From positions 28,458 to 92,457 of the forward strand of contig JAIVFJ010000238.1 of NCBI GenBank assembly GCA_025765615.1: a DNA stretch of 64,000 nt. Direction: 5' to 3'. Shown here in pieces: positions 8,119-34,822 of this stretch. The notes beneath the pieces are model-generated. The model had not been told where the DNA came from, searched no databases, and saw only the letters and a list, made by a program, of their open reading frames with translations. This stretch comes from Zopfochytrium polystomum (Eukaryota > Chytridiomycota > Chytridiomycetes > Chytridiales > Chytridiaceae). Position 1 is the stretch's first letter. The number at the start of each line of letters is the position of its first letter. The position numbers and the translations under genes were made by a program.

Positions 8119-8604
8119 TTAGCGGATGGGGCGAATGTGGCGGTCCGACGCGCCGTACGCGAGGCTCGCCATCAGACGGTCGAACCGCTCCTGCTTCGCC
8201 GCTGACGCCTCTGACGCATCCGACACCGAGGGCGTCTCGCTCCCGCCGTTCGCGTCGGCGGCCTCGTCGTCCTCAGCTAGCGCCTCTGCCGGCGACAGCT
8301 TGATGTGCCTGTCCGACGCCCCGTACGCCAGGCTCTCGGCGAGACGGCGCAGTGCGACTTTGGTCTTTGCGGACTTGATGGACGACGACGGGGTGGAGCG
8401 AGCGACCGACGCCGCGGCGGTGACGGTCGGAGTCGTGGGCTCCGGGGTGGTGGTGCTTGAAGAGGAAGGGGAGGTTTCAGCCTTGGTTGCTGTGGTCATC
8501 TTGATGTTGCGGTCGGATGCGCCGTAGGCGAGGGCGGACATGAAGCGCTTGACGCCGTCGCTGGTTGGGGCGAGGGGAACGGCGGCGGTGGCGTTGGGGT
8601 GCAT
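8119..8604 (-). CDS. LAYGASDR triple-repeat protein F1
   Basis: Intronless, 161 residues. Starts MHPNATAAVPLAPTSDGVKR. Three copies of one peptide are spaced by Ser/Thr/Pro-rich linkers: FMSALAYGASDRNIKM (about residues 21-36), LAESLAYGASDRHIKL (middle) and LMASLAYGASDRHIRPIR at the very C-terminus. A basic stretch (KSAKTKVALRR) precedes repeat 2 and an acidic stretch (EDDEAAD) follows it. No signal peptide or membrane helix, so probably cytosolic or nuclear. I do not recognise the family. The upstream frame is open, but MHPNA is chosen because all close paralogues begin there and the upstream DNA is conserved as a leader (CTCTCGGCCTCATTCGC). Confidence 0.85.
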   Translation of the reverse strand: MHPNATAAVPLAPTSDGVKRFMSALAYGASDRNIKMTTATKAETSPSSSSTTTPEPTTPTVTAAASVARSTPSSSIKSAKTKVALRRLAESLAYGASDRHIKLSPAEALAEDDEAADANGGSETPSVSDASEASAAKQERFDRLMASLAYGASDRHIRPIR

Positions 8605-8727
8605 TTTTTCTTTTGTTCTTTGGGGTTGTTCTTTGGAGTGAAGGGGAGAGCGAATGAGGCCGAGAGGCTGGAGATGTTGCTGGAATGAAGGGTGTGGACT
8701 GAGGGTAACGTTTTCTGAGGGCAAGCT

Positions 8728-8778
8728 TTTTATATGCGAGGAATGAAGGAGTTTGCCCAATCAGACGCGGTTAGGGGT
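8728..8778 (-). promoter_or_regulatory. F1 promoter: CCCCTAA box, GATTGG box, TATA
   Basis: In sense the order is CCCCTAA (8771-8777 on plus as TTAGGGG), GATTGG (plus CCAAT at 8757-8761), and a TATA-like CATATAAAAAG (about 8728-8736). The same order and similar spacing precede F8. Confidence 0.6.
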
Positions 8779-9059
8779 TTTTCCTTCTTTTTCTTTTCCT
8801 TTGCTGTTGTGGGGGTTCCAGCTTCTCGGCGATTTCGGCCGATCACCTTCCTTTGCACTCTCGATCGGAAAGAGGAAGAAAGAAAGTGTTGCAGACAAAA
8901 CACGATAGTGATCGCGAACAAGATTATGTAAGGTTTTGCTGCGAGTGCGGATTTCGTTTCTCTTTCTTCTTTCTTTCTTTCTTCCTTTCTCCTTCGCATG
9001 CCAAAAAGCACGCGCCATCCGCGGCATTCACTCGCACGCGCTCGGGGGCTCTACCGGGT

Positions 9060-9260
9060 GATTCATCGCCCAATCGGCTACGGTGGCTCATCCCTTCGCC
9101 TTCACCGCGGATGTAATCCGGGAAAATGAGAAACAAGCCCTAAAAGCTGGCCTTGCTTGCAGAAGGGCCGAGGACCCCCGAACCGCGATATAAACCCAAA
9201 CCAGTGCTTTCGCTCACCTTAAACCGCCATCAACCAGTTTTCACCAGGCCAGTAAGAGCC
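9060..9260 (+). promoter_or_regulatory. Orphan promoter, divergent from F1
   Basis: Carries the block GATTCATCGCCCAATC...CGGTGGCTCATCC (9060-9092) also found at 10727 upstream of F3, then AGCCCTAA (9136-9143), then TATAAA (9189-9194). This copies the F3 promoter layout, but no gene follows before F2's 3' end. Inferred remnant of a lost F3-type gene. Confidence 0.6.
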
Positions 9261-9743
9261 CAAAACTACTTCTCATCGCCAATAGCCGCTCTACCTACAC
9301 CTCCCCCTCTCCAACAACCCATGGTCTAAGGTTACTTCAGCGATTTGCAACTGACTTCTCCCGATTCCATTCCCTTGATCCTCTTTCTCTTGCTCCTTCC
9401 GTTGGTTACATCTATCTCCTGCTGTTCGAATACTACTCGCGACGTAAACATTTCAAAACGACCGTTTGTAAGGTGGGTGACTTGGATTGCATGTATTTTC
9501 ATTCCTTTTTTAAATATGAGATGGGCTGCGTCGTTCGAGCGAGTAAGGGCATGGAGGAAAGACCCCCGAAGGGGAAGCAATCTCCGCAACAGAAACCGAG
9601 CAAAGAAAGAGAAGGAGAAAACCAACAAACAACACATAATGTAAAACAAAGGAGAGGCAGCCAACGCGGGCTGGGAAGCCAACAACCAAAAACAACAAAC
9701 AACAATCGTCACAGACAAAGGCGGAGACACAACAAGCGCGCGT

Positions 9744-10226
9744 TTAGCGGATGGGGCGAATGTGGCGGTCCGACGCGCCGTACGCGAGGCTGGCCATCAG
9801 GCGGTCGAATCGCTCTCGCTTCGCCGCTGACGCTTCCGACGCGTCAGACACCGACGGCGCCGGCGATGTCTCGCCGTTCGCGTCCGCATTCTCATCAACA
9901 TTCTCGACCGGCGCCTCGGCGGGCGACAGCTTGATGTGCCTGTCCGACGCGCCGTACGCAAGGCTCTCGGCGAGACGGCGCAGTGCAAGCTTGGTCTTTG
10001 CGGACTTCATGGACGACGACGTGGTGGACCGTGTGACCGATGGCGTGGCGGTGGTGGTCGGGGTTGTGGGCTCCGGGGTGGAGGCAGAGACCACGGTGGT
10101 GGTGTTCTTGGTCCCGGTCATCTTGATGTTGCGGTCAGACGCGCCGTATGCGAGGGCGGACATGAAGCGCTTGACGCCGTCGCTGGTCGGGGCGAGGGGA
10201 GTAGCGATGGCGGCGTTGGGGTGCAT
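9744..10226 (-). CDS. LAYGASDR triple-repeat protein F2
   Basis: Intronless, 160 residues, close paralogue of F1, F7 and F8. Starts MHPNAAIATPLAPTSDGVKR; repeats are FMSALAYGASDRNIKM, LAESLAYGASDRHIKL and LMASLAYGASDRHIRPIR, separated by Thr/Pro-rich then acidic linkers. It is divergent from F3 (866 bases between starts), so the two may share a two-way promoter. The conserved 3' element follows at 9521-9543. No targeting signal is visible. Function unknown. The strict conservation of the repeats against variable linkers suggests the repeat is the working part, for example a short helix that binds a partner (inference). Confidence 0.85.
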   Translation of the reverse strand: MHPNAAIATPLAPTSDGVKRFMSALAYGASDRNIKMTGTKNTTTVVSASTPEPTTPTTTATPSVTRSTTSSSMKSAKTKLALRRLAESLAYGASDRHIKLSPAEAPVENVDENADANGETSPAPSVSDASEASAAKRERFDRLMASLAYGASDRHIRPIR

Positions 10227-10356
10227 TTTTACTTGGGTTTGTTCTTTTGGAGAGTGAAGGGGAGGGCGAATGAGGCCGAGAGGCTGGAGTTGTTTTGTCG
10301 TGAGGAGGCGAGTTGGTTGATTGGATGTGAAGGGGAACGTTTCCCAAGGAATCCCT

Positions 10357-10410
10357 TTTATAGCGGGCGGGGTGGGGGGGTCGTTCGTCCAATCAGAGGC
10401 CCTTAGGGCT
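10357..10410 (-). promoter_or_regulatory. F2 promoter
   Basis: In sense: AGCCCTAA (10410-10403), GATTGG (plus CCAAT at 10389-10393), then CTATAAAAGG (about 10363-10354). Ordered as in the other family promoters. Confidence 0.65.
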
Positions 10411-10726
10411 TTTTTCTTGTTTGCTTATTTTGGTTTGTCAGGCGAAGGAGAAAAAAAAAAGAAAAAAAAGGAAAAAAAAAGCTCCGGCGTTTTCCACGCT
10501 CATCATTTTGCGTAGTTTAGAACTCCAGTCAGCCGGCAGTGGGGCGGAGATTGAATTGGATTGTGAAAGGCCCGCCCCAAGGGCTGATTATGATCGCGAT
10601 GCGCAACTCTTTCTTTCTTTCTTCTTTCTTCCTTTCGTTCTTTCTTCGCTCCTCGTCTTGTCTTTCTTCTTTCCTTTTGCTTCTCCTCCTCTCCTCCCCG
10701 CGCGATCAGTTGGTGGCGCAGGGCGT

Positions 10727-10973
10727 GATTCATTGCCCAATCAGTTGCCTGCGGTGGCTCATCCATTCGCATAAACATTGCCTGTCAAGGAGAATTGCAG
10801 TAAAAAAGAGAAGAAAGCCCTAACGCTCCCGTTGGAGAAAGACCGAGAACGACCGAGAAAGACCAAGAGCGACTGAGGGAGAAAGAGAGAGAGAGAGAGA
10901 GCGTGTGTATGTGTGACTGAGACTGAGCCTTCCCCAAATCTCCAAACCCCCCGCAAAACCCTTCGATATAAAA
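10727..10973 (+). promoter_or_regulatory. F3 promoter
   Basis: GATTCATTGCCCAATC with GGTGGCTCATCC (10727-10763), AGCCCTAA (10816-10823), a GA tract and GATATAAAACC (about 10965-10975), about 120 bases before the ATG. Confidence 0.65.
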
Positions 10974-11091
10974 CCGCCTCCGCTGTCGCTTACCTAAACC
11001 ACACACACACCAGGTTCGGCAAGCAACAACAACAAAAAAAAAACCCCCTCCCACAGCCACCCGCTCTCTCCAATCACACCACACCGCAACA

Positions 11092-11343
11092 ATGGTCCAC
11101 TACAACTCCCCCTCCGCAGTCGCCGCCATGGTCCCCAAGACCAAGATGTTCGCTCCCGCCAAGAACCACCCCGCCGCCGCCGACCTGCCGCTCACCAAGA
11201 CCGCCACCCAGTCCTCGACCGCGTCGTCGTCGTCGCGAATGTCGTCCGCGTCGGCCTCCTCGGCAACCAAGAAGGCGGGCGTGCAGCGGTTCTTTGACAG
11301 CCTCGCGTACGGCGCAACCAGCCGCCTGGTGCCCGGCCGCTAA
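11092..11343 (+). CDS. LAYGASDR single-repeat protein F3
   Basis: Intronless, 83 residues. N-terminus MVHYNSPSAVAAMVPKTKMF, a Ser/Ala-rich linker with a basic ATKKAG, and one C-terminal repeat RFFDSLAYGATSRLVPGR. It aligns along its length with F6 (28297-28557). The repeat shows it is related to the triple-repeat genes, with T-S for S-D. No signal peptide or helix. Divergent partner of F2. Start codon supported by identical N-terminus in F6. Function not recognised. Confidence 0.85.
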   Translation: MVHYNSPSAVAAMVPKTKMFAPAKNHPAAADLPLTKTATQSSTASSSSRMSSASASSATKKAGVQRFFDSLAYGATSRLVPGR

Positions 11344-12085
11344 GCACGACGCGTCGCAGCCGCCAAGGCCTCTTATTGTGGGCTAGCGCGTGTGTGGGAC
11401 TGTTTTGGTGCTTCTTGTTCGTTCGACGCATCCGTTTTCGCCTCTTGTCTTTGGCCGCCGCAGCACGTTTCTTTCTTCGCCATCGTCCAGCCTCACGACA
11501 ATTTCTTCCTCTTTCGGGCCGATAAAATTGCCCCCTTCTTCTCTACATTACCCCTTCTTTCGCTGTTGGACAGCCTCTTAACCCTTGTTTCTGGAGACGC
11601 CCTCACCGCGATGGCGCATCCTCCACGCGCGTTCTATTTCGCGCTCTCGAAAAAAAATCAAACGTACCAATATAATAAAAATATCTCTTCATAATTCACT
11701 CCCACAAAAAGCTAGCTTCGAAGGGGGCCAGTGTGCCGAACGAAGATTGAAAACCGAAGCCAACGAGATGAATCAGCAACCGAACCTCGTCGGAGCTTTC
11801 GTTTGATTGATGAAGTAGATCCACAGACATGGTGTTCATTTGCAGTTGGTGGGCTCGATTGTATTTATTTTGTCGAGTTTCCTCAAGCGTGTCCACCCTT
11901 GTACCACTCATGAGCAAAGAACAGGGTAGAGACAGGAGAAGGGCAAAAGGATGGTAAAGTGGGAGATTAGCATAGCCTGCGAGAGGCCATCACATTAGAG
12001 GTTGCCAATTAGGTGAAAAGGACAAGAAATTGGAGGGAAGAATTGCGGGAAAAAGCGTTGGCACGAGTCGAACGACCCGAGTGTT
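11344..12085. other. Intergenic, 3' flanks of F3 and copy B
   Basis: No supported gene or RNA. Confidence 0.5.
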
Positions 12086-13081
12086 TTACTTGAGCACGCA
12101 GGCAGAGGCCTTGTTGGACCACTCCTTCTGGACGGTGTAGGTGTTACCGTCTCCGCCGGTGATGGTACCCTGCTGCGCGTTGCAAATGTCACCAATCTCG
12201 CCGTACTGGCTGTTGTACCACGCGAGCGGGGCCGCGTTGCCGGTCGCCAAGCCGACGGCGGGGTCCGTGGTCGCCTCGACGAGCTCGTGCGACGAAACGG
12301 AGCACAGGTTGTTGAACGTCGACGACGACGTCCCGCAGCCGCCCGCGCACGAGCCGCCCTGGTCCGGGATGATGCCGTAGAACAGGTACTGCTGGTCCGA
12401 GATGTCCGAAATGTCGATTGTGTTGTGGTACGCGCAGAACTCGACGCACGAGCTCTGGCCGCCTTGGGAAATCGAGTAGCCGGAGGCGAAGTGGATCGGG
12501 AAGTACGAGTTGGCCGTCGGAGTGATCGTGCCGTCTTGAACCAGCGACCGCAGGTACGGCTGGATGTCGTTCGCGTCGTCGAGGTCTGTGGCGGACGGCA
12601 GGTTGCTGAGCGTGATGGCGCCCTTGTACGTGCCGCGGCCGATGCCGGAGTACTGGCTCAGCATGTCGTAGTAGGTCGAGCTGGTGACGCCCTTGTAGAA
12701 GCCGGGGAGCTTGGAGGCGTAGGTCGCGCCGCCCCAGTTGAGCTGAAAAAGGTGGCGGGAGGCAAGTGTGTGGAGGAGAGTAATTTAAGAACAATGTGCG
12801 AGTAGAATAAAAAACCCGGAAAGCCTCACCAGAGTGACTTCGACGTTCTTGAGGACCGGGCCGCCGTAGTAGGTCAAGGCCTTGGCGGAAGCGCGAGCCT
12901 GGAGGCGCTGGCCTTCGGCGGGGGCGGGGGCGCCCAGGACGTGGGCGTCGGGCGTGAACTGGACGCCGTCCTTGTAGCGGACACCAGGGATCTTCTTGTC
13001 GACGACAAGGGGGCTCGGAGCGGCCGAGACGAAGGTGGCGGCGACGACCGCCAGGGTAGCGAGGATGCCGGTGAGCTGCAT
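12086..13081 (-). CDS. EXORDIUM-like secreted protein, copy B
   Basis: Two exons: 13081-12830 and 12742-12086; the 87-base GTGAGG...CAG intron is in phase 0. The product has 302 residues. A signal peptide (MQLTGILATLAVVAATFVSA, then APSP) is followed by VVDKKIPGVRYKDG, LTYYGGPVLKNVEVTL at the exon junction, YYDMLSQYSGIGRG, a cysteine block (SCVEFCAYH, CAGGCG), SSHELVEATTDPAVG, LAWYNSQYGEIGDICNAQQG and a C-terminal cysteine. YGGPVL near the N-terminus plus HELxEAxTDP and EIGDIC match the plan of EXORDIUM/phosphate-induced proteins of the cell exterior. Whether the HE motif binds metal is open. A TATAAATA box (plus TATTTATA, 13191-13198) lies about 110 bases upstream. Confidence 0.85.
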
Positions 13082-13710
13082 TATTCTTGCCTTTTCGAGT
13101 GTTGGATCAATGAGGTACTGAAACGGGGATATGAGGTATTCCGATCGGGGGTACTGTGGATGGAGGGACGGAGAGCGAAGTGGGCGCGAGTATTTATAGT
13201 GTCCACAGGAGGAGGGAGCGGGAGTGACGACCAGGAAGCGGAAGGGGGGAGCGAGGCGGTCATCCGACGTCAGTCATGCTTGGCAAACGAATTGCCTGAA
13301 AAGGAGAAATGCAGACACGTGCAAGCCCAAATATCGCAAGTGCCAAGCCGAGACAAAGAACTCCAAAAAGGGCAAAGCGCGCGACGCTGTTTGGAATCCA
13401 TGACTGACCGTGAAATTTTTTGACTGTCACGGCGCGTGGCAAACCGACAACGGGACGACGAAAGCCGCCGCGCGTTCCTTCCTTGGCAAGGAAGGCGTGT
13501 GGGCAATCAATCGTGTTTCTCTTGCCCGAAAAGGAAAAAAAAGTCGTTGTCTGCAAGCGATCCTCGCGAAAGCCGCCTTTCTCCCGCGCCTTGGCGGCCT
13601 TTTCGTTTTGGGATATCGTTTGCCCCGTTCACCGCAACGGCTCAATGCACATACATATATGCCCGCATCGATTCGGCTGCCCACCTTACATTTTTTTATG
13701 CTGACTGGAA
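13082..13710. other. Intergenic upstream of copy B
   Basis: Promoter of copy B (TATA at 13191-13198, minus sense). Nothing else supported before the hAT target site. Confidence 0.5.
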
Positions 13711-13718
13711 CATATTTG

Positions 13719-16360
13719 CAGGGTTGTTATTTGGACAAAAAAAGGCACCTGCCTTTTATTGTCCATTTTGGACATTGTCCTTTGCCGGACAAAATGGCGC
13801 CGAGTCTGTCGCAAGATCTGTGCCTTTTTGGACTGCCCGAAATCCTGCCTTTTTTAGTTTTTGATTGGTTTTGAGATAAAAAAGGAACCCGTCTTTTACC
13901 AATTTATTTATTTCTCACTTCTTACAGCCCGTCTCCTCGATCACCGAACAAATCTCCAAACAAGTCGGTTGAAAATCCCAAGAATTCGTTCTTCACAAAT
14001 TCGTAGAGCTCTGTCCCCTCTAGCTGGGCCATATTAGTTACAACAAAGATCACCTTATTTATCACATCGTCGTGGAGGCGATTGCGGATGTTGGTGTGGG
14101 TGCGGGCAAATAAAGAGAAATTTCGCTCTGAAGCGGCACTGGATGTGGTGATGGAGAAAGCCTTCAGCGCTATGGGTCTGAGTCGTGGGAACTCGGAACC
14201 CCGAGTAAGCCAAAACTCAGATGGTGAAAGCTTCCGACTTTGGACGTTTCCCCAATAAATTGGCTCCGTAAGCTGAATTCCATCACACCATAGAACAAAC
14301 TTCCAGTACTCGGCACTGATCTCGCTTTTTTCAACATCCGATGCGCCAAGAGCCGCCAGCTTTTCAACAACCTTGCCCTTCTCAGCTGTGGAAAGGTGGG
14401 TGCCACGGTGAACTGGATCCAAGAGATTGGCGAATGCATGCTCGTCACGTCGCATGAAAGCGAATCGAGCTTCAACCTTTTCCAAAAGTGCGGTTTTCAT
14501 CTCAGTGGAAAACCCTTCGAGATTGCGAAATTTATCCTCGATTGTACGGAATCCCATGTAAACTTCTGAAGCAGGCAACCTGTCGCTTGGAAGCGAACAA
14601 GTTGCTCGTCAATTGGTGTGAGGATTTCGATAGCCATTCGTAAATGTTCGTCAAAATGCTGGTAGTTTAATATACTCAAGATGTACTGACGATGCTCGCG
14701 TTCCTTGCGTTGGCAGTCCAGGAAATCAGTCTGAGATGTGGCAACTCGCATCAAGGGCAGAGCGTCTAGAACCGACTTTACTGACTTCAGATACGACGTC
14801 CAGCGAGTGGGTGCTGGCTGGACAAGCCACCGCAGATTTGCTCGCTTCATCTCTTGGCGGAGGCGGCCACCCCAGAGTGCGGACATACGAGATGCAGTCA
14901 GAGATGTGTATAAGCGGTGATTGCTCGTCACTGATCACGCAAATGTCCTTTGTGAGAAGATTCAGTCCGTGTGAAACACATCCACCTGCGAATGTTCCTG
15001 GTCTCTTTTTCTGAACAGAAGCCCATGCTTTCTTGTTTGCGCTTGTGTTGTCTGTCACAACACTGCCAACGTTCGAAAATGTTGCAACCTGATCCATTAC
15101 ATCACAGATATCGTCGGCAAGCTTTTCTGCAGGGCGTGTCTCACCGCTTGAATTCTTTGACATCCAGAAAAAGGTATGGGGGCCAGAGACGGGTTTTCAA
15201 CATATTTGAACGATGTGCCCGACGTGTAAAGTGCCATCGCAAGGAAAAAGTTGAACGAGCGCTTCTCATCTGTCGACAAGGAAGAGCCCCCGCAAGAACA
15301 ACGACGGATGTCGTTTGAATGACCAGCAGGCAGGTAGAACGACGGATAAAGAGAAGGATCCAGCTCCTTCATCAGGTCGAGGAATTTTGGGCAGCGCCTG
15401 ACGAGATGATTCTCCACCCGATCAACTTTTTTGTGGTGGTTGACCTCCTTTTCGCACAATTTGCAAATGGTTGATTGCTGCTGTCGACACGCATAGTCGT
15501 TGGATAAGTAGCTCCAGGCATCAGATGGTGGGCGTCCAGGGCTCACTGTCGTAGACATACATCTTCTCTTCCGTGAAGAACCAGCATCTGGCAAAATCCC
15601 GTCGTTTAAGGACGGAGAATGGCGAGACCAATTTGAATCGCTTCCTCTCGAGCTAGCGTGACCAGTATCAGAGTTGACGCTGAGCCGAGGCAGACCATCA
15701 TGCTCATACAACAGTGATTGCGGTGAATCAGAGCTGGACAGTGGAGGTTGTGCGATCAGCTGGATATGTGATGATGATCGGCCTTCAGGTTGTCGAGTAG
15801 TTGTGAAAGCACCAGGTGGCGTGTGACCAGGTATGAGGGCATTGCTGACAACTCGGCCGATCGGAAACTGCTTACTCTGACCTGAATTAAACACGGACAT
15901 GATCATCAGCTTTCATCAATGAAACACGCCTGCTCACCACTGCACCCAGCAAGAAAGTCAACATTCATCGTTTGGGCGGCTGACGGCAAGGTGTTGGTCA
16001 CATCCCTCAACTGTTGGTGCATCGCTGGGGTTTTGGCGACAGCGGGAAGCAAAGGAACCGAAGATGCCCATTTTTCCGTTTGAAAGAATGGCGGTATTCC
16101 AGCACCAAGACTGCGTCCTGCACCTGCGCTGTTTGTCGTTGCGTTCGTCGGTTTGGTCGAGTCGTGGCTATCCATCGATCGAGACGTCGCTTTGGTGGTC
16201 GTTGGTGGTTTTTCCTTTGCGCCTTGCGATGCACGAACGAGCTAACACATCAACTATTTACCTTCCATTTTGGGTCGCATTTTTGGACTGTCCAAAATGC
16301 TGTCCAAAATGGCAGGTTTGTGGCAGACAAATGGACAGCCCTTTTGTTTTCCCAACCCTG
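13719..16360 (-). mobile_element. hAT DNA transposon with 8-bp target duplication
   Basis: Terminal inverted repeats CAGGGTTG (13719-13726) and CAACCCTG (16353-16360) are flanked by a perfect 8-base duplication CATATTTG (13711-13718 and 16361-16368), diagnostic of hAT elements. Subterminal regions carry many copies of GGACA/TGTCC, likely transposase sites. The minus strand holds a broken transposase. Exon 1 is 16175-15938; a 56-base intron joins it in frame to 15881. A BED-type zinc finger follows (W-Y, CKLCEK, HLVRRC). Then come, across three frame changes (about 15170, 14925, 14580), the catalytic-core parts VVTDNTSANKKAW and CVSHGLN, and the C-terminal hAT dimer domain (SSAASERNFSLF...RNRL). 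Roughly 100 residues between NPSL and the core seem deleted. Confidence 0.93.
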
Positions 16361-16368
16361 CATATTTG

Positions 16369-17286
16369 TGATACCTTTCCATTGTGCGCCAATATCCCCG
16401 CATCCGCTTCCTCCGGAAAACATTCAATTGCTGGCTTTGTTCGAAGTCACATTTCTTTCATCAACATTGGTGAAAAAGCTTGGCTGTCTTCCATCGACGG
16501 TGTTCTATGATGAATTGTCGCTTCCCCAGCCCGCGCGTCATACCAAGGCAAGTTGCACTTGTCGTCTATCACGCAACCGATTTTAGGCTTGGACTCTTGT
16601 AGAGCTGCGAGTGTGTGAGGTCCGAGCTGGACGTTTGCTGGAAATCTCCTCAACCGGGTTTCTTTTGATACGGCACGCCCTTGGTCCTTTTTAATGGTTT
16701 CACTGTTCCACACTAATGAGAAGGGGCAAACGCTTTGCTGAAGTTCTGAAGTGCAACGACGCGTTTTAACTCAGCCAAAACCCCTCGTAAACAGCTCTCT
16801 GATTTGTAGTCCACCGGCGCGGGTCTTCTGGTCTATTGCCAAACACCTTCAACACACTTTCCACACCCCTCCCTTTTGGACCAGTGTGCTTGAACTCCAC
16901 TATTTCCCCTCAAACCACCACCTCAACACCATATTTAACCGACCAGACAGCCGTCGAACTTTAACTGTCCTTCAAACCGTGACTGATGCCTGTGTTGCAC
17001 CTAAAATTTGCACCCGCCAAACATGACACAAGCTGTACCAACTTCACCTTGGGGTTTAAAACAGTTGTATTTCAGGATGCGTGAACGGATATGGGAGTGT
17101 AGAGGGCTGAGCATCAATAAAAGAAAGAAAAAACCAAGCTCGACCTGGGAGCTTGGCACCAGCCAAAGCGATCCCGGAAACAGGAAAAAAGAAGGACGCT
17201 TAAAATAGCCGAACAGCAGCCAAAAAAGTGCAAAGAGACCTGCAAAAAGCAAGAACAACCCGGTAAAGAAAACCAACACATCCGAC
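16369..17286. other. Intergenic between hAT element and F4
   Basis: No supported gene. Confidence 0.45.
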
Positions 17287-17694
17287 TCAGCGCAGCGGGT
17301 GGATATGACGGTCCGACGCGCCGTACGCCAGGCTGTCCATGAGCCGCTCGAACCGAGCGGCTCGGCCGTCGGTGGCCGGCGACCCGGCGCGCGAACTCTC
17401 CGCGACGCCGTCGGCGTCGACATGGCTGGCGGCCGAGGCGCCTTCCAGCCTCTCTGTCGCGCGCAACGACTTGGATGACCGGGACGTCCCAGACCTCACG
17501 GAAGCCGAGGAGCTGGCGGGCGCGGGAACGTGGAGTGAGTCGCTTGAGAGGCCGGCGGCGGCGGCGGTTTGATGCGTGGGCGTGGCGGGCTTGACGGCGC
17601 GGTCTGAGGCTTCGAGCGGGAGGGACGCCAGGAAGCGGTGGGCGCCGTCCTTGGTTGGAGCGATGGGGACTGCCAGGGTGGGTTGCGCGAGTGG

Positions 17695-17700
<6 letters not shown>
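17287..17700 (-). CDS. Diverged LAYGASDR-family protein F4
   Basis: Intronless, 137 residues. MHPLAQPTLAVPIAPTKDGAHR matches the family start; repeat 1 has changed to FLASLPLEASDRAVKP, repeat 2 is barely recognisable (SLRATERLEGAS), and repeat 3 is intact (RFERLMDSLAYGASDRHIHPLR). Linkers are Ala/Ser-rich. In sense, a run of about 26 A directly abuts the ATG. The upstream AGCCCTAA (plus TTAGGGCT, 17876-17883) and TATA (17851-17860) match the family promoter layout but no ATTGG is seen. Repeat 3 being the best kept suggests the C-terminal copy matters most (inference). Function unknown. Confidence 0.8.
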
Positions 17701-17725
<25 letters not shown>

Positions 17726-18536: not shown

Positions 18537-19690
18537 AAACACCGTACGACGGTCTCTCAGTCCCATCTGGCCAGCCAGAGTCATGTTGATCCCGTCTTAC
18601 CTGTCGGTTCTCGACAAAAGAAACCGAAAAATTAGGCAAGCAAAGAGGGTAGTCGCCGTGACAAGTTCCTCTACGAAATAAACAGGTTGAAAATCCCAGA
18701 AATTGCATGCTTTGAGGAGCGGAAAGTGGGTTGCTCTTTGTACAGCAGCGGGGAAGCGAATTTCAATGCGAACCCGCGACGCCGTTGCGATGGGGCCCCC
18801 GTTTGTCTTAAAAACGTGAAGACACCACCACGTTCCAACGAGCGGTGGCAACACTGTAATCCCTTCCGGGGAGCTCGCCGTTGCTGTCGGATCTCTTCCC
18901 GTGTATTGTGGGTTCAGGCTCTAGGTCCGCTTCCCAATGTTGAGGATCGCCCCCTTCCGCCAACAGAAGTCCCGTGTGGACCAGCCTCCTGCGTCGCAAG
19001 GCGCAGCACTGAGACGGGTCTTGAATAGCTGCCGAACCGCCCGAGGCTGGACAACAGAGCAGGGAAAAGGCACAGCACGGGACGGTCTGGGGACGCGCCG
19101 GTCCGAGTTGGGCGCCAGATGCTGTTCCACCCGGGTTGAGGGACCAGCAACTTCTTCCTTTTGCATCTTTAGATTTCCTTTTTTTTGCCCCGCGTCCGAC
19201 GGCATCGTCGTTGACAAAATTTTGGTTGCGCTGGCCGACTGCGAGGCTCGAAGTAGCCCGAATCAGTCCAACCGCAGCGCAGCGGAGGTGCAGTCATGGA
19301 GACGATCGCGTTTGTCAGCGCCGACCGACTCGGCGTGGGTCCTGGCAATCGGACGACTGTTCGCGGCACAGCGCCGGCGGACGATCTGGCGATAAGCGGG
19401 TCCCCATGAACTGCACGCTGCGTACTTCGGATTGTCCACCCTCAGGAATTGTCAGACCCATTGTCTCGCGGGCTCCGTCTTGGAGATAGAAATCGTCGAA
19501 AATCCACCACGGAGGTGGAGCAGGAGGCATGCGCATCGTGGAGCCAGTGACTACCCAAGCAGCCGTGTCGAAAAGGTCGTGCCAGGCCTTGTGCCCAGCG
19601 AAAGGTCTATCCCAGTCGTCATCGTCCCGGAGAGGCCGGAGTCCGGTGGTTCGTTGGTCCAGTCTTTATCTCGCCATCACCCGTCCAGCC
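18537..19690 (+). repeat. Dispersed repeat R1, copy 2 (longest)
   Basis: Matches copy 1 (7072-7590, same strand) over 18690-19160 and copy 3 (32745-33455, opposite strand) over both ends. The minus strand from about 19620 to 19315 keeps a protein-like frame with WHDLFDTAAWVVTG, FDDFYLQDGAR and LTIPEGG, also partly readable in copy 3, so the repeat probably includes an old gene fragment I cannot name. No terminal repeats or target duplication seen. Confidence 0.75.
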
Positions 19691-20095: not shown

Positions 20096-20129
<34 letters not shown>

Positions 20130-22674: not shown

Positions 22675-23620
22675 GGGAGGGAAAGGGGGGAGGAGAGTGG
22701 ACGGAAGGCGGGGTTTGGTGAACCCCCGTTCACACCCCCAACCCATGTCCCAGGGTTTGCTTTCTAGGGCTGTGTCGCCGATCCCTCGTTGAGTTTTTGT
22801 TGGATGCTTTCGGGTGTACCCGCGTGAACTTCCCCGCGGACCCATGTTTGTTTTTGTTTTTTTCCTCTTCCTTTCAGTTGGCTCGTCCGCCACTGCTTCT
22901 CAACATGTGTAAAACCGACAATGAAAACAAAACGAAACCTCTCCAAACCGAAAACTCGCTTTTTTCTTTTTCTTCTCTCTTCCGTGCGAGTTTCACGAGG
23001 GCAGACTACGGCCGCTGTTCCTTGGCAGAACACTTCGGCTGGCTTGTCTACTATCCATTCTTTAGAGATAATAATGTTTCTCAGGAACAGCGCGATTGTT
23101 CATTCTCGTTGCGTAAACCAATGCAGTTGCGTGTCTTGCTGCGGGCGTCGGGGACGAAACCGAGGTTGCTAAGCACGCACTCGCGCGCGCGCGGAGAGTG
23201 CGCCGCATTGTCTTGTGAAATAGAAAGGAATGATTAAAGCACCAAAAACCCCTAAGAAGAGAAGAGACGGCTGGCTCCTGATTGGACGGTGGAAAGCCCC
23301 ACGAGAAAAATGAAGAAAAAAATCATCAGAAATTCATTACATAAGAGATAAAAGAAACAAAGAAAACAAACAAGAAAAGGAAAATAAAACAAAAAGAGTG
23401 GGAATGAGTTGTTCCTGCGCGGAACAAGAGACGAAGACCAGCCCGATCAATCAACAAGAAAAGTCCGCACGCGCCGCCCGGTGCAAAAGCCACCCTCCTC
23501 CTCCTCCTCCTCCTCCTCCTCCTCCTCGTCCTCGTCCTCATCCTCCTCGCTTTGCCTCGCCCAGAACACCACTCCCACCAACCACCACCACCGCCACCCG
23601 CCTCCCGCAACCACCACCAT
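22675..23620. other. Intergenic with F5 promoter
   Basis: ACCCCTAA (23248-23255) and GATTGG (23280-23285) precede F5 as in the family; a CTC repeat (about 23492-23528) lies in its presumed leader. Confidence 0.5.
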
Positions 23621-23983
23621 ATGCACCCCTCCATCATCCTCGCCCCCACGAACGACGGCGCCAAGCGCTTCATCTCCGCCCTGGTCCATCGCGCATCGTC
23701 CCCATCTTCCAATTCCACCACAACAACCACCGACGACAGCAAAGACTTCAAGTACCAGGATCACGACGCAATCAAGGTGAAGGCAACTTGCACCGGCTCG
23801 TTCGACGCAACCCTCGTCGAGCTCACTCCGTTCGAACCTGACACCCGCCGCGCCGACGCTCAACCGTCCGACAGGCTCGCGCTGGCGGCAAAGTCGGCCG
23901 CCCAGCGGGAGAGGCTTCACAAACTCGTGAGCGGTGGCCGGGCGTCGGACAACGCCTGCGGCGTTGTCCGGCGCTTTCGTTAA
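23621..23983 (+). CDS. Diverged LAYGASDR-family protein F5
   Basis: Intronless, 120 residues. MHPSIILAPTNDGAKRFISALVHRAS aligns with the MHPNA...LAPTSDGVKRFMSALAYGAS start of F1/F2. The C-terminus SAAQRERLHKLVSGGRASDNA parallels SAAKRERFDRLMASLAYGASDRH, but the LAYGASDR core is lost in both places. The middle is acidic and threonine-rich. The promoter boxes ACCCCTAA and GATTGG upstream support membership. Start chosen by alignment; an open frame extends 23 codons further. Could be a member adapting to a new role or early decay without stops. A fragment with the same start occurs at about 30230. Confidence 0.65.
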   Translation: MHPSIILAPTNDGAKRFISALVHRASSPSSNSTTTTTDDSKDFKYQDHDAIKVKATCTGSFDATLVELTPFEPDTRRADAQPSDRLALAAKSAAQRERLHKLVSGGRASDNACGVVRRFR

Positions 23984-26869: not shown

Positions 26870-28296
<1,427 letters not shown>

Positions 28297-28557
28297 TCAG
28301 CGACCGGGTGTTTCGGGCACCAGGCGGTTGGTGGCGCCGTACGCGAGGCCATCAAAGAACCGCTGCACGCCCGACTTCTTGCTTGCCGAGGAGGTCGACG
28401 CGGACGACAGTCGTGACGATGATGACGTGGTTGATGACTGGGTGGCCGTTTTTGTGAGCTGCAGGTCGGAGGGGGACGGCTGGTTCTTGGCGGGAGCAAA
28501 CATTTTGTTCTTGGGGACCATGGCGGCGATGGCGGAGGGGGAGTTGTAGTGAACCAT
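28297..28557 (-). CDS. LAYGASDR single-repeat protein F6
   Basis: Intronless, 86 residues, paralogue of F3. MVHYNSPSAIAAMVPKNKMF start, Ser/Thr-rich linker, SASKKSGVQ and one repeat RFFDGLAYGATNRLVPETPGR. The tail is three residues longer than F3 because of an extra ETP. Divergent from F7 (810 bases between starts), mirroring F2/F3. Upstream in sense are AGCCCTAA (plus TTAGGGCT, 28721-28728) and GGTGAATCATAGCCCAATC (about 28799-28781). Function unknown. Confidence 0.83.
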   Translation of the reverse strand: MVHYNSPSAIAAMVPKNKMFAPAKNQPSPSDLQLTKTATQSSTTSSSSRLSSASTSSASKKSGVQRFFDGLAYGATNRLVPETPGR

Positions 28558-29168
28558 TGTGGTCGTTATGACGGGGCTGTGAAGGCTGCTGCAGGCGATG
28601 AAAGTTCTCTTGGGGGCGTGGTGGATCTGAGTGGAGGGGATTTGGTAAGCGATGGTTTTATCTCGGCCTTGATGAATATATATACTGTATACGGGAGGAG
28701 AGTTTGAACAGGGCGTTCGGTTAGGGCTTTCTTCTCGTTTTTTCTTGCGTGACGATTCAGTAGGTTGGGCCGCCGCCGTTGATTGGGCTATGATTCACCA
28801 CGCGCATACAGCAGGGGGCGTGCTTTGCGCCACCAGACTGGTGCGAGAAAAAGAACAAAAAAAAAAGAAAAAAAAAAAAAAAAAGAAAAGCAAAGGACGA
28901 ACAAACCGCACCTCGGAATCCGCACCAAACACTCCCCCCCTCTTTGCTTTTTCCTTCGCTTTCCATTTCTTTCCGCCCCAAATCTCCCAAATCTGCCTGT
29001 CGAGTGAGTGAGCGTTGAAAAAAAGAAAGAAAAGAAAAAAAGAAAAAAGAAAGAAAAAAGAAAAAAGGCTGAAAAAACCCTGCGCAAATTTTGTTTGTTT
29101 TGTTTTCTCCTTTGCCTGCAGGGCTCGGGACGAGGGCCCAAGAAAAAACCAAACCAAACAAGAAAAAA

Positions 29169-29223
29169 AGCCCTAACGGGCCTTCTCATTGGGCCAACGA
29201 GCCTCGCTGCCCCAATATAAAAA
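29169..29223 (+). promoter_or_regulatory. F7 promoter
   Basis: AGCCCTAA (29169-29176), CATTGG (29187-29192) and AATATAAAAATGG (29214-29226), about 140 bases before the ATG. Confidence 0.65.
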
Positions 29224-29366
29224 TGGCAGAGGGCGGTGTAACGCCTTCAACAAACCAGTCAACCAACTAGCCTACCTTCCCACAAACAAATAACTCCAGC
29301 CTCTCGGCCTCATTCCCTGCCCTCCCGAAAGCCTCCCTCTTCTCCAAAGTACAGACCCAAGTTAAC

Positions 29367-29858
29367 ATGCACCCCAACGCAAACGCCACTGCTCCCCTCG
29401 CCCCGACCAGCGACGGTGTCAAGCGCTTCATGTCTGCCCTCGCCTACGGCGCCTCCGACCGCCACATCAAGATGACCACAACAACCAAGGACATCACCGC
29501 GGCCACAGCCTCCTCCTCTGCTTCCACCACGTCGACTACCCCAGAGCCCACGACCCCGACCGCTTCGGTCGCCCGCTCGACCACGTCGTCATCGAAGAAG
29601 TCCACCAAGACCAAGGTTGCGCTCCGCCGGCTCGCCGAGAGCCTCGCGTACGGCGCTTCCGACAGGCACATCAAGCTGTCACCCGCCATGGCGCCGGTCG
29701 AGGAGGACGAGAGCGTGGACGCGAACGGCGAGACGGCGACCGCGCCGTCGGTGTCCGACGGGTCCGAGGCGTCTGCGGCGAAGCGGGAGCGGTTCGACCG
29801 CCTGATGGCCAGCCTCGCGTACGGCGCGTCGGACCGCCACATTCGCCCCATCCGCTGA
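29367..29858 (+). CDS. LAYGASDR triple-repeat protein F7
   Basis: Intronless, 163 residues. MHPNANATAPLAPTSDGVKR, repeats FMSALAYGASDRHIKM, LAESLAYGASDRHIKL and LMASLAYGASDRHIRPIR; Thr/Ser/Pro-rich first linker, basic KKSTKTKVALRR, acidic second linker. Closest to F8 and, in the opposite arm, F1/F2. The 3' element lies at 30033-30055. Leader contains CTCTCGGCCTCATTC. Function unknown; no targeting signal. Confidence 0.85.
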   Translation: MHPNANATAPLAPTSDGVKRFMSALAYGASDRHIKMTTTTKDITAATASSSASTTSTTPEPTTPTASVARSTTSSSKKSTKTKVALRRLAESLAYGASDRHIKLSPAMAPVEEDESVDANGETATAPSVSDGSEASAAKRERFDRLMASLAYGASDRHIRPIR

Positions 29859-30224
29859 AACGCAATTTGTTCTCGCGTCGCTTCATTTCGCGTCTTCCCT
29901 TTTTGTTTGGTTGTTGGCACTCCAGCCCGCGCTGACTGCCCCCCATTGTCTTACGTTTGTTGGTTTTTCTCTCTCTCTTTCTTTGCTGGCTTCCTGTTGC
30001 GGAGATTTTCCTCCATGGCCTTACTTGCCGAACGACGCAGCCCATCTCATATTTAAAAAAAGAATGAAAATACATACAATCTAAGTCACTCCCCATCAAG
30101 AAGTCAAAGTGTTTACTCCCGAGTTGCGTTCGAATCGCAGGAGGAGAGGATCGAAGGAATGATACCGCAGTTCCGAAGAGCGCTGGAAGTCTTTACGAGT
30201 CGGCTGACTTTGGCGCAGCACCCA

Positions 30225-30320
30225 AGGTGCGCCTACAACCGCCCCCCTGCATAATCCTCCACAACACTGTCAAAAGCTTCATCTCCGCCCTAGTCCATCA
30301 TACGTTGTTCAGAGGTTCCC
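30225..30320 (+). pseudogene. Relic resembling the 5' end of F5
   Basis: CIILHNTVKSFISALVHH corresponds to the F5 N-terminus SIILAPTNDGAKRFISALVHR, and the DNA matches (AGCTTCATCTCCGCCCTAGTCCAT). It has no usable ATG and the frame degrades after about 30 codons. It sits between F7 and F8 where a single-repeat gene is missing. Confidence 0.6.
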
Positions 30321-30454
30321 CTCATCCTCACCACCAATATGACCGCCACCACCCTTTTGGCCTGGTCGAAAACTGGCTGGTTTGCGGGCGCTCGCTCTTT
30401 CTGATGACCAGGCGAGCGGTGGGGCTTGCTTCTCATCTTCTCGGAGTAGTTTTG

Positions 30455-30495
30455 GCGAATGGATGAGCCACCGCAGCTGATTGGGCCATGAATCA
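30455..30495 (-). promoter_or_regulatory. Orphan promoter block between F7 and F8
   Basis: In sense (minus): GATTCATGGCCCAATC followed by GCGGTGGCTCATCC, the block seen at 9060, 10727 and upstream of F6. No single-repeat gene lies downstream on the minus strand, so it marks a lost partner of F8. Confidence 0.6.
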
Positions 30496-30764
30496 CCCGC
30501 TGGTGACAGTTTCCGCCCAGCGAGCACGCGCCACGGACTCGTGCGTGCCGGCCTGTGCGGAACAATGAAGATTGGACGCCCAATAAGAAAGAACAAAGAA
30601 GAAAGAACACAAGCAAGCAAGCCTTACATCATCATCATGTTCGCGATTTCAATATTTTTTTTTTCTTACGGGCGCAAGAAACCTTTCTTTCTTGCTAAAG
30701 AAAGTGCGAGCACGAATTGGAAAGAGACAATCCTTTGCCTCCCACAAAAGAAAAAAAGGAAAAA

Positions 30765-30786
30765 AGCCCTAACCGCGCCTGATTGG
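30765..30786 (+). promoter_or_regulatory. F8 promoter boxes
   Basis: AGCCCTAA (30765-30772) then GATTGG (30781-30786); the following TTTTTAAAAGG and ACATAAAAAGC are TATA candidates. Near-identical to the F1 promoter. Confidence 0.6.
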
Positions 30787-30959
30787 GCATCCTTTTTAAA
30801 AGGTGTCTCCTTGCCTTCTTCATTCCTCCCACATAAAAAGCTTGCCCTCAGAAAACGTTACCCTCAGTCAACACCCTTCATTCTCCAGCAACATCTCCAG
30901 CCTCTCGGCCTCATTCGCTCTACCCATCTTGAAGCCCCTTTCTCCAAACCCCAGTAAAA

Positions 30960-31481
30960 ATGTACCCCAACGCCACCGCCGCTACTCCCCTCGCCCCGAC
31001 CAGCGACGGTATCAAGCGCTTCATGTCCGCCCTCGCCTACGGCGCCTCAGACCGCCACATCAAGATGACCACAACAACCAAGGACGCCACCGCGGCCCCG
31101 GCCTCATCGCCCGCTTCCACCACCGTGACTACTCCGGAGCCCACGACCCCGACCACCACCACCACCGCCACGCCCTCGGTCGCCCGCTCGACCACGTCGT
31201 CGTCCAAGAAGTCCACAAAGACCAAGGTTGCCCTCCGTCGTCTCGCCGAGAGCCTCGCCTACGGCGCGTCCGACAGGTACATCAAGCTGTCGCCGGCCGA
31301 GGCGCCGGTCGAGGATGACGAGGAGAACGCTGCGGTGGCGGACGCGAACGGCGAAACGACGACCGCGCCGTCGGTGTCCGAGGCGTCAGAGGCGTCTGCG
31401 GCGAAGCGGGAGCGGTTCGACCGCCTGATGGCCAGCCTCTCATACGGCGCGTCGGACCGCCACATTCGCCCCATCCGCTGA
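30960..31481 (+). CDS. LAYGASDR triple-repeat protein F8
   Basis: Intronless, 173 residues, the longest of the four. MYPNATAATPLAPTSDGIKR (H to Y at residue 2), repeats FMSALAYGASDRHIKM, LAESLAYGASDRYIKL and LMASLSYGASDRHIRPIR, with the only changes in the cores being H to Y and A to S. Linker 1 is expanded by threonines. The leader closely resembles that of F1 (CTTGCCCTCAGAAAACGTTACC). The 3' element is at 31671-31693. Function unknown. Confidence 0.85.
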   Translation: MYPNATAATPLAPTSDGIKRFMSALAYGASDRHIKMTTTTKDATAAPASSPASTTVTTPEPTTPTTTTTATPSVARSTTSSSKKSTKTKVALRRLAESLAYGASDRYIKLSPAEAPVEDDEENAAVADANGETTTAPSVSEASEASAAKRERFDRLMASLSYGASDRHIRPIR

Positions 31482-32136
31482 AACCGCTCTGCACTCTGGC
31501 GTCGCTGCTTCATTTCGCTTCTTCCTTTGTTTGTTTTAGTTGTTGGCTCTGTAGCCCGCGCTGGCTGCCCCCTCTTTGCTTTATGTATTTCTCTTCCATT
31601 GCTTTCTTCTCTCTCTTTTGCGGAGATTGTTTCCCTTCGTAGGCAGCTTTCCTCCATTTCCTTGCTCGAGCGACGCAGCCCACCTCATATTTAAAACTCC
31701 CGAAAATAAATGCAATCCAAGTCAGTGTCTGATTGCCGTAACTGATATGTGGTCGAGCAGGCTCCAAACTGCCCCATTAGCCGATTTCTTCTTTCTCCTC
31801 ACCTCGTCGACTGTTCTTTAGGAAGTCACATGGGAATAAGTAAAAAGCCCGGGAAAGGTTGTTAAGTCGACGCCTGTTAGACGGTTTTCCTAACGCGGTG
31901 CGTGGCCTATTGTCGGCGGCGGCGGCTTTGACGTTTCAGCGGCCGACTCAAAGCAAGCACGCGCCGGGCGGAAGAGATCCACCGCAAGGGAATGCAAGGC
32001 AAGAAAAACAGATACGTGCACTTTTGAAAACAGCAACCGACCATTCCGTTTTTCACAAGACTTGGCTCTCGAAAATCTAGTAGAAAAGCCCAACTCCCCC
32101 ACCCCCCCAACGCTTTGCTTCTTGCTTAAACCCTTT
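31482..32136. other. Intergenic, F8 3' flank
   Basis: Conserved 3' element at 31671-31693; no gene supported. Confidence 0.5.
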
Positions 32137-32300
32137 ATGAAAGCCATACACCTCACCACCACCTACTCGCCCCGACCGCCGACGGCGCAAAGCGCATCCT
32201 TGCGGCACCGGGCGCCGCTTCAAATCGCACCACCAGAACACTCGCCGCCGCCTCCACACACCATCCACGACGCTCGCGAACATTAACGGCAGCCGTGAGC
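32137..32300 (+). pseudogene. Relic of a LAYGASDR-family 5' end
   Basis: From 32166 the frame reads LAPTADGAKRILAAPGAASNR, the family LAPTSDGVKRFMSALAYGAS block in decayed form. The expected start just upstream is ATA (32146) in a frame shifted by one base. No downstream repeats remain. Confidence 0.6.
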
Positions 32301-32744
32301 CGTCAGTGGGAAGCACGGGCCAGAGAAAAAATGACATCAAGACGCATTGCACCAGACCACTACCTCCCCTTCAGTCCTGCCGAGGAAACATAATCTCGGC
32401 TTTGTGTTGCACTTCGTTTGATGTATTTCCATCCGGTACCCCTCGCCGCCCTGCACATGTTTAGCAAAAATCATTCTGCTTTGACTAGAGTCGATCTCCA
32501 ATGATCTGGATGGGATTAATAGTTTGCGTTCGGCTTTGAGGTGCCGGCCTTGACGAAGCAGCGGACACCGCCAATACTGGCACACAGTACCGAATCCTCA
32601 CCCAGTGTCGGACGAGACACAAAAACCATTCGCGATCCATCTGCTGACTGCGAAAGCACCAACGATCGATTGTCAGGTTCGCGATTGTTGTCTCCAAAAG
32701 AAAAGGAATTAGAGTAAGCACCAATTATCACGATGCGAAAGAAA

Positions 32745-33455
32745 GAAGTTGACTGGACCAACGAACCACCGGACTCCGGACCCTCTCCGGGACGATGACG
32801 ACTGGGATGGACCTTTCGCTGGGCACAAGACCTGGCACGACCTTTTCGACACGGCTGCTTGGGTGGTCACTGGCCCCACGATGCGCACGTGCACTTTCGC
32901 CCTCCTGCTCCGCCTCCGTGCTGGACTTTCGACGATTTCTATCCCCAAGGCGGGACCCGCGGGATAATGCGTCTGACAATTCCTGAGAGTGGACGATGTG
33001 CAGTACGCAGTGTGGAGTTCAGGGGAACCCGCTTATCGTCAGATCGTCCACCAGTGCTGTGGCCACGTGAAGTCGTCCGATTGCCAGGACCCGCGCTGAG
33101 TCGGTCTGCGCTGACAAACGCGATCGCTCCATGACTGCACCTGCGCTGCGCTGCGGTTGCAGACTGATCCGGGCTGCTGCGAGCCTTACAGTTGGCCAGC
33201 GCAACCAAAGGATGTCAACGACGATGCCGTTGGACGCGGGGGAAATAAAAAGGAAATGTAACAATGCAAAAGAAAGAAGTTGCTGGTCCCTCAACCCGGG
33301 TGGAGGAACATCTGGCGCCCAACTCGGACCGGCGCGTCCCCAGACCGCCCCGTGCTGTGCCTTTTCCCTGCTCTGTTGTCCAGCCTCGGGCGGGTACGGC
33401 AGCTATTCAAGACCCGTGGCCAGATGGGACTGAGAGACCGTCGTACGGTGTTTAA
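32745..33455 (-). repeat. Dispersed repeat R1, copy 3 (inverted, internally deleted)
   Basis: Reverse complement matches both ends of copy 2 but lacks what corresponds to about 18573-19014: CAGTCCCATCTGGCCA is followed directly by CGGGTCTTGAATAGCTGCCG. The same FDDFY/LTIPE coding trace is readable on the plus strand (about 32890-33060). Confidence 0.78.
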
Positions 33456-34351
33456 CGCTGTGCACTATCTTCGCCTCAGCGTCGACCGTTTTGTGGCGCC
33501 CCGGAAGGCACCTCACGAAGCGCCTGCAGCTCCTCTCAAATGACAAATGCTGCGGCAGCGGGCGCAAGCGGCAAGCCGGTTACGATGCAGCCCATCTCAT
33601 ATTTAATCTCATATTTAGAAAATTGAAAATGGACTATAAAACTGCTTGACCTCCTCGCTTCGTTCTCACCACGGCTGGCTTGTCGTTCATAAAAGACAGT
33701 TGAAATGTCACTGGCAACCACTCCGGGTCCCCAATTCCTCCATTACACTGCCACGACTAGCACGGCGCTGACGATCGCCGTGATCCGTTATACCTGCGCT
33801 TCCTCTGATTCGATCCAAGTGTCGTCCATCGTTCGCAGTGTCTCCTCCGACGGCCAGACGGGTCGGGGAAGGAGGCGGTGCGCATGCGGCGCGTGGGGGC
33901 GCAGCCCAGCGGCACCGAGTTTGTCTCCTCACCATTGTTGTGCAATAAAAATGACGCCGTCCTGGGACCGTTCTTTTTTCGGTCGTGTTTGCCCTCCAAA
34001 ACCGTCTTCCAGCTTCCTGTCGTTGAAAGTTTCTTGTTTGCCTTTCGAAGGAGGCTTTCCGCACAAAAAAAGACGAAGCAAAAGGAAATATCCGAAAAAG
34101 CAGCAAGCCGCAAACAAAAACACGTCAAAAATCACGGAGAAATGCACCATATGCAGAAAAAAAGCCCTAGTCCCGATTTTCATTGGACAGCCCTGAACCG
34201 CATCTCGCTCCCGCATAAATGCGCTTCCACCCACCCCTTTCCCCCGACTTCCTCCCTGCCGCCTTCCAACGACTACCACTCTGCTTAGCCTAAAGGATTC
34301 AAAATTTATCCCATCATCACATAGCCCCTCTCCAACTCCCAAAACCCAAAC
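33456..34351. other. Intergenic with orphan 3' element and F9 promoter
   Basis: CGATGCAGCCCATCTCATAT (33583-33605, with a partial second copy) is the triple-repeat 3' element with no gene before it. AGCCCTAG (34163-34170) and CATTGG (34181-34186) form the F9 promoter. No other gene. Confidence 0.6.
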
Positions 34352-34822
34352 ATGCGACCGACCCCCGCCTCCACCACCACCACCCCTGCCGACAGCGTGC
34401 ACCGTCTCCTCTCCTCCCTCGCCTACGGCGCCTCCGACCGCGTCCTCCCCGCCCCTTCCCCGCGCCACCACCGCGCCGAAGACGCCGTCATCCTCACCTC
34501 CGCGGCAGACCCGGCCTTCGACACCGCCTTCCCGCCCCTCGATCGCGAGGACACCGACCATCCGCCGTCGGCCCACCACGCCGCCGCTCGAGAGAAAGCC
34601 GCCGCACTCCGAAGACTCGCGGTGATACTGGCTGGCCGCGGTCGCCACGAGGCCGGGTACGCGCGGATCTGTTGTGACGAGGACGAGGACGACCACCGGC
34701 ACGGGCACCTCGACGCCGACGGGCAGCCGTCATCGGCGCCGCCGCCGGCGGAGCGGTTCGGACGCGTGATGGACTGTCTCGCGTACGGCGCGTCGGATAG
34801 GCATATTGTGCCGGGCCGATGA
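34352..34822 (+). CDS. Diverged LAYGASDR-family protein F9
   Basis: Intronless, 156 residues. Lacks the MHPNA start (MRPTPAS instead), but repeat 1 (RLLSSLAYGASDRVLP) and repeat 3 (RFGRVMDCLAYGASDRHIVPGR) are intact. Repeat 2 has become ALRRLAVILAGRGRHE. The VPGR ending is shared with F3, linking triple- and single-repeat forms. Linkers are His/Asp-rich. A family promoter lies 160-190 bases upstream. Function unknown. Confidence 0.82.
   Translation: MRPTPASTTTTPADSVHRLLSSLAYGASDRVLPAPSPRHHRAEDAVILTSAADPAFDTAFPPLDREDTDHPPSAHHAAAREKAAALRRLAVILAGRGRHEAGYARICCDEDEDDHRHGHLDADGQPSSAPPPAERFGRVMDCLAYGASDRHIVPGR

Follow-up and report, generated by a model that had tools for sequence, protein, structure and literature searches.

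We analysed a stretch of 64,000 nucleotides of the genome of Zopfochytrium polystomum, a water fungus (Chytridiomycota, Chytridiales), hereafter the window (contig C238:28458-92457), and found nine loci of a family of small proteins built on a SLAYGASDRHI motif. In the window, every family locus reads as one open frame; the earlier note on this DNA had called the four three-copy genes intronless. Among paralogues, the repeated peptide is conserved by selection while the linkers drift. The explanation that we favour, to which we give about an even chance, is that these are small intracellular disordered proteins in which one to three short amphipathic helices bind a putative folded partner.

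Selection on the repeat peptide

Four genes encode three copies of the motif each, at the places where the earlier note had put them: A1 (8119-8604, minus strand, 161 amino acids (aa); copies at 8503-8535, which reads ALAYGASDRNI, 8302-8334 and 8134-8166), A2 (9744-10226, minus strand, 160 aa; 10125-10157, 9933-9965 and 9759-9791), A3 (29367-29858, plus strand, 163 aa; 29436-29468, 29640-29672 and 29811-29843) and A4 (30960-31481, plus strand, 173 aa; 31029-31061, 31251-31283 with DRYI and 31434-31466 with SLSYG). The motif of the A genes can be written R-[FL]-x-x-[AS]-L-[AS]-Y-G-A-S-D-R-x-I. Their alleles were located on contig C3 at 98633-99118 (A1), 97035-97517 (A2), 77949-78446 (A3; annotated protein P0001, DFJ73DRAFT_807541) and 76296-76817 (A4).

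Among the A paralogues of the window, the repeats showed 65 synonymous and 13 non-synonymous differences (six pairs, 60 codons), and the ratio of non-synonymous to synonymous rates (dN/dS) was 0.061, against 0.398 for the linkers (six pairs; 154.8 synonymous and 190.2 non-synonymous differences). The A genes on C3 gave 0.088 for repeats and 0.392 for linkers. Because paralogue pairs are not independent, minimum events were also counted, with 20 gapped linker columns excluded; the repeats took 4 non-synonymous and 21 synonymous events and the linkers 48 and 35 (Fisher P 2.3e-4). The proportion of differing synonymous sites (pS) in the repeats was 0.23 between paralogues. Within one gene, repeats 2 and 3 reached a pS of 0.47-0.59, yet their 11 codons specify identical residues in A1, A2 and A3; in A4 the two differ in peptide. 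By codon position, the repeat differences among the window A paralogues were distributed 13/0/65 in the frame given, that is, mostly at third positions, and a non-coding or antisense origin was therefore ruled out.

Other family genes in the window

B1 (11092-11343, plus strand, 83 aa) consists of the N-terminal module MVHYNSPSAVAAMVPK and one C-terminal copy, RFFDSLAYGATSRLVPGR, and its paralogue B2 (28297-28557, minus strand, 86 aa) has RFFDGLAYGATNRLVPETPGR. The two are 88% similar in DNA over 11089-11335, which is the coding frame only, flanks excluded (blastn), with 16 synonymous and 14 non-synonymous differences (pS 0.236; the corresponding non-synonymous proportion, pN, 0.077). Their N-terminal module, M[VP]HxNSPxAVASxxPKxxxF, was matched at 12 other places in the genome, and ten of these were read; the matches lie on C318, C6, C269, C125, C1, C213, C153 and C136 (loci L069-L077) and have other C-terminal ends, such as QQFFSLFGSGKVPPSQ and VKGFFTNLFSKK, and some of them may be haplotype pairs.

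Gene C (17287-17700, minus strand, 137 aa) carries an altered copy, SLPLEASDRAV, and an intact C-terminal one, SLAYGASDRHI; its allele on C3 is annotated as P0003 (DFJ73DRAFT_262392). Gene E (34352-34822, plus strand, 156 aa) has the altered copy SLAYGASDRVL and a well-kept C-terminal CLAYGASDRHI, and between them LRRLAVILAGRGRH resembles, as judged by eye, an eroded middle copy. The claim that two genes encode one copy thus fits C and E in part, as each keeps one well-kept C-terminal copy but has a second, altered one. At locus D (23621-23983, plus strand) a 120 aa open frame has its motif eroded to ALVHRASSPSS, and in the C3 allele the start differs and that open frame has no ATG; locus D is probably decaying. 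The three loci described before as diverged are B1, B2 and D, and all were found. It had also been proposed that the last repeat is the best preserved. In the window this is so, as the C-terminal copy is retained by the genes of types A, B, C and E (SLSYG in A4), but not in the family as a whole, where two genes elsewhere (at C184:88 kb and on C43) have the N-terminal copy better kept.

Relatives elsewhere in the genome

When 80.2 Mb of the genome were searched with a degenerate LA[YH]x[AS][ST][DN]R pattern, 39 matches resulted, against 0 for its reversed control; the pattern misses some members (B1 and the C43 group). Thirty-six of the 39 lie at family loci (C3, C238 and C184) and three elsewhere (C10, C92 and C286); given this and the empty control, the motif is not a product of chance. 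On C184, four intact family frames and one fragment are found at 83-93 kb. Contigs C43, C205, C659 and C559 contain near-identical copies of one further family gene, with frame differences from C43 at the start, in the middle and near the end in C205, C559 and C659. These four copies sit about 2.8-17 kb from contig ends and are possibly subtelomeric. Four annotated family proteins (P0001-P0004) were found in the protein collection, and P0004 is on a 9,816-base contig, which the genome searches did not bring up. Of the weaker matches of the genome search, those on C162, C13, C67, C500, C16, C178 and C432 were read and judged to be chance, and that on C71 belongs to an unrelated frame; other weak matches lie on C379, C189, C87, C2, C279 and C497 (the last with a score equal to that of C71).

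Six of the nine sequences outside the window (C184 at 84, 86, 88 and 93 kb, C43 and C205) have a PPxY near the C-terminus, the ends being PPPEYSEKSV, PPPEYREKSV, PPAYSEKDV and PPPPYSERNV on C184 and EPPAYESVVGRR on C43 and C205. The genome also encodes WW domains (45 matches at E<=0.01, 41 of them over the cut-off). The motif is reused across several architectures: three-copy A genes, one-copy B genes that have an N-terminal module of their own, and the relatives on further contigs.

Searches of databases and literature were consistent with the earlier description of an undescribed family, as far as they went. Pfam gave no match near any cut-off for the family, and 0 of 17 motif pieces matched any of its families; PDB sequences gave no match to the motif profile (best E 0.6). 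In the protein collection, A3 as query retrieved only P0001 (797 candidates), and a profile of 11 members retrieved four proteins, all from Z. polystomum, among the 7991 candidates sharing most words that were scored; this restriction to one species is that seen among annotated proteins. A profile of the B-type N-terminal module found none at E<=10 among 7975 candidates scored. With A3 alone as query, none of the 596 prokaryote and 60 viral stretches matching the pattern encodes a relative, so no bacterial or viral source was seen among them. The motif letters were not found in the literature searched, and the passages of PMC9926174 (on Z. polystomum) that were read contain nothing bearing on the family.

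Predicted structure and mode of action

AlphaFold placed helices in A3 at residues 15-28, 80-96 and 134-153, which are its three repeats, and in B1 at residues 7-12 and 63-75, the second of which is its motif copy. The models, which are of low confidence, support a helix on each copy and give the protein no overall fold. The hydrophobic moments of five motif helices were 0.34-0.51, against permutation means of 0.22-0.28. Disorder-promoting residue types make up 62-76% in 13 of 13 proteins, none of which reached the hydrophobicity of a membrane span (highest 19-residue Kyte-Doolittle mean 1.02), and the features of the multivalent disordered linear-motif class are present: the motif is conserved, the linkers are free and there is no predicted globular domain. 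In an alignment of 17 motif rows, four columns are nearly invariant (R9, L14, A18 and R21), two of them in the polar GASDR end.

In the favoured explanation, with which the partner-binding helix suggested in the earlier note is consistent, the binding unit would be R-h-h-x-[AS]-L-A-[YH]-G-A-S-D-R-x-I, an amphipathic helix whose end is fixed. The proteins would stay inside the cell, the helix would bind a protein, and several copies could give avidity or bridge partner molecules. A and B might act on a common partner, as competitors for it or by connecting it, since the two appear to go back to a pair of genes that were transcribed divergently and shared a promoter element; members with PPxY might pass the partner to a WW-domain protein, for example a ubiquitin ligase of the Rsp5/NEDD4 type. 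A fuller version, which we regard as doubtful, would make this a new binding motif in at least three architectures, with A clustering the partner, B with its NSPxAVAS module competing or linking, and the PPxY relatives sending the partner to ubiquitination.

Several results weigh against these proposals. The mean predicted local distance difference test score (pLDDT) was 54 for the A3 model, in which only residues 141-150 reach a block mean of 80, and 59 for that of B1. PPxY is absent from the window genes and from C659, C559 and P0004, and the pseudogene fragment at C184:83 kb has PPGC at the PPxY site. Selection on the peptide, as the earlier note had proposed it, holds between paralogues, but the signal between alleles is contrary: in the four allele pairs the repeats differ by 4 non-synonymous and 0 synonymous changes (linkers, 18 and 10), and the comparison of allelic with paralogue repeat counts, made in the manner of McDonald and Kreitman, gave a Fisher P of 0.003. 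The 4:0 count suggests that any one copy may by now be weakly constrained, and single copies may accept slightly deleterious substitutions, which redundancy would permit.

These allelic differences, all amino-acid changing, also speak for the view that the genes are recently born, mostly redundant orphans of little present function, held alike by duplication and conversion. The clustered duplicates, the relic copies, the eroded member, the frame-changed copies on C205, C559 and C659 and the lack of any relative found outside Z. polystomum agree with such an origin. Conversion is disfavoured, because the peptide was kept although the synonymous sites of the repeats have diverged (pS 0.23 between paralogues and about 0.5 when repeats 2 and 3 within a gene are compared), and we consider the orphan view unlikely.

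A precursor of repeated peptides cut at basic sites, comparable to the Kex2-processed precursors of fungi, would also keep its copies while the spacers drift. KR or RR precedes 11 of the 27 recognised copies (the third copy of A4, with DR, was missed by the script), and K or R follows the final hydrophobic residue in 11 of the 27, with one further K after V. The position before the conserved R can, though, be occupied by A, D, H, Q, E, G or T as well, and the cleavage site is thus not conserved; none of the 13 proteins has a hydrophobic, signal-like N-terminus (highest 9-residue mean 1.51, by hydropathy only), and some genes have just one copy, behind a different N-terminal module. With 13 of 13 proteins lacking such an N-terminus and basic pairs before only those 11 copies, the processed peptide suggested in the earlier note is disfavoured, and we rate it as quite improbable.

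The helices could alternatively lie on the surface of a membrane, for instance that of an organelle or a vesicle, with no protein partner. Their moments exceed the permutation means and several copies would raise the affinity, but the well-kept polar GASDR end after the helix is unexplained by one hydrophobic face, and a generic membrane-binding helix would not require it. We find this unlikely as well.

Short disordered fungal genes are easily overlooked; for this family, only four annotated proteins came up in the searches of the protein collection. Since coding and selection on the peptide could be shown from sequence alone, the motif offers a concrete bait for an unseen interaction in early-diverging fungi.

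Promoter element and probable origin of the cluster

A candidate promoter element, AGCCCTAA, is located at 10403-10410 on the minus strand, 184 nucleotides before the ATG of A2. Its AGCCCTA core starts at 10816 (plus strand) for B1, 17883 (minus) for C, 28728 (minus) for B2, 29169 (plus) for A3, 30765 (plus) for A4 and 34163 (plus) for E. The window contains nine AGCCCTA, against 3.45 expected (first-order Markov, mean of 20). Seven of these stand 171-276 nucleotides before an ATG on the coding strand (A2, A3, A4, B1, B2, C and E), the eighth, at 9136, is inside a probable B-type promoter relic, and the ninth, at 22771, precedes no family gene. A1 has the variant CCCCTAAC in place of AGCCCTA. 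ATTGG follows the element in A1-A4 and E. A TATAAA-like box also follows it in A2, A3, B1 and C, whereas A4 and E (CATAAA) and B2 (TATATAT) show less good versions of the box. As the A genes are mutual duplicates and B1 and B2 likewise, the shared element would represent at most four independent lines. In the upstream stretches read, no AGCCCTA was found for the C184 genes and C43; C43 has ACCCTAG and then ATTGG, 337 nucleotides before the ATG.

A2/B1 and B2/A3 form divergent gene pairs. Probable B-type promoter relics lie between A1 and A2 (9055-9142, plus strand) and between A3 and A4 (30502-30422, minus strand); in blastn, 9058-9099 and 30502-30449 matched the region upstream of B1, and 9055-9140 matched 30499-30422. 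The divergent pairs and the relics in these two positions make a divergent A/B gene pair the probable starting point of the cluster.

Probable haplotypes and neighbouring repeats

Positions 2297-41210 of the window align with about 66-105 kb of C3 in inverted orientation, with 91-98% identity in long collinear pieces, and because of this collinearity the most plausible reading is that C238 and C3 represent two haplotypes. A hAT transposon at about 13714-16366 is present in the C238 haplotype and not in C3 (Dimer_Tnp_hAT E 3.6e-12); its BED finger scores slightly below the cut-off, and it has an 8-bp target duplication, CATATTTG, and ends of the CAGGGTTG type. About 2 kb of C3 is absent from the window haplotype at 16872. 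A dispersed repeat occupies 7043-7584, 18616-19664 and 32751-33417, about 88% alike inside the window, and several places on C3 too. A separate repeated gene family (SVSSHELVEATTDPAVG... GEIGDICNAQQG) occurs at 12086-13081, 39614-40600, 44016-45035, 62221-63150 and 1-395, with copies 70-88% alike in DNA; three copies were scanned and gave no Pfam match at E 0.001.

Comparison with known systems

Like the present family, the repeats of WH2 and thymosin-beta (PF02205) combine a short amphipathic helix with an end that is fixed and not helical, and they occur singly or several times on a disordered chain. The hallmark of WH2 is LK(K/R)(T/V) after the helix; the family lacks LKKT/V, and the corresponding residues are mostly D-R-x-I. 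GoLoco is marked by Q and a D/E-Q-R triad after the helix. It shares F-F-x-x-L followed by R at equal spacing and multiple copies, whereas the family has neither the Q nor the triad.

A repeat binding G-actin like WH2, or G-alpha like GoLoco, is suggested to the eye by the spacing of LLxxIxxG--LKKT and FFxLLxxxQxxR, which is like that of FMSALAYGASDR. Yet no profile matched at the family loci, shuffled controls reach the scores, and LKKV/T and DQR are absent; we consider such a repeat very improbable. The profile-comparison score with WH2 was matched by 98 of 200 column-shuffled controls, and the weak hhalign score with GoLoco by 11 of 200, with no Pfam match. A likeness to PKI (PKA inhibitor), whose hallmark is an R-R-x-A/S-hydrophobic pseudosubstrate, was likewise unsupported (122 of 200 shuffles; that sequence is absent from the copies). 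The WH2 profile of Pfam matched ten places in the genome, three over the cut-off and none at family loci. The genome's own WH2 motifs, which served as a comparison, include a clear verprolin-like one at C205:6220-6303 (RGALLKSIEKGARLKKTVTNDR) and two near-identical WASP-like ones at C485:20867-20935 and C3:448032-448100.

The Kex2-processed repeat precursors of fungi are alike in their near-identical copies, drifting spacers and some copies after KR or RR, and unlike in that the family has no signal-like N-terminus and no conserved basic pair. PPxY motifs mark the WW-domain adaptors of Rsp5/NEDD4 ubiquitin ligases. The window members and three of the outside ones differ from these adaptors in having no PPxY, and binding to a ligase is here a supposition, but six of the nine members outside the window end in PPxY as the adaptors do.

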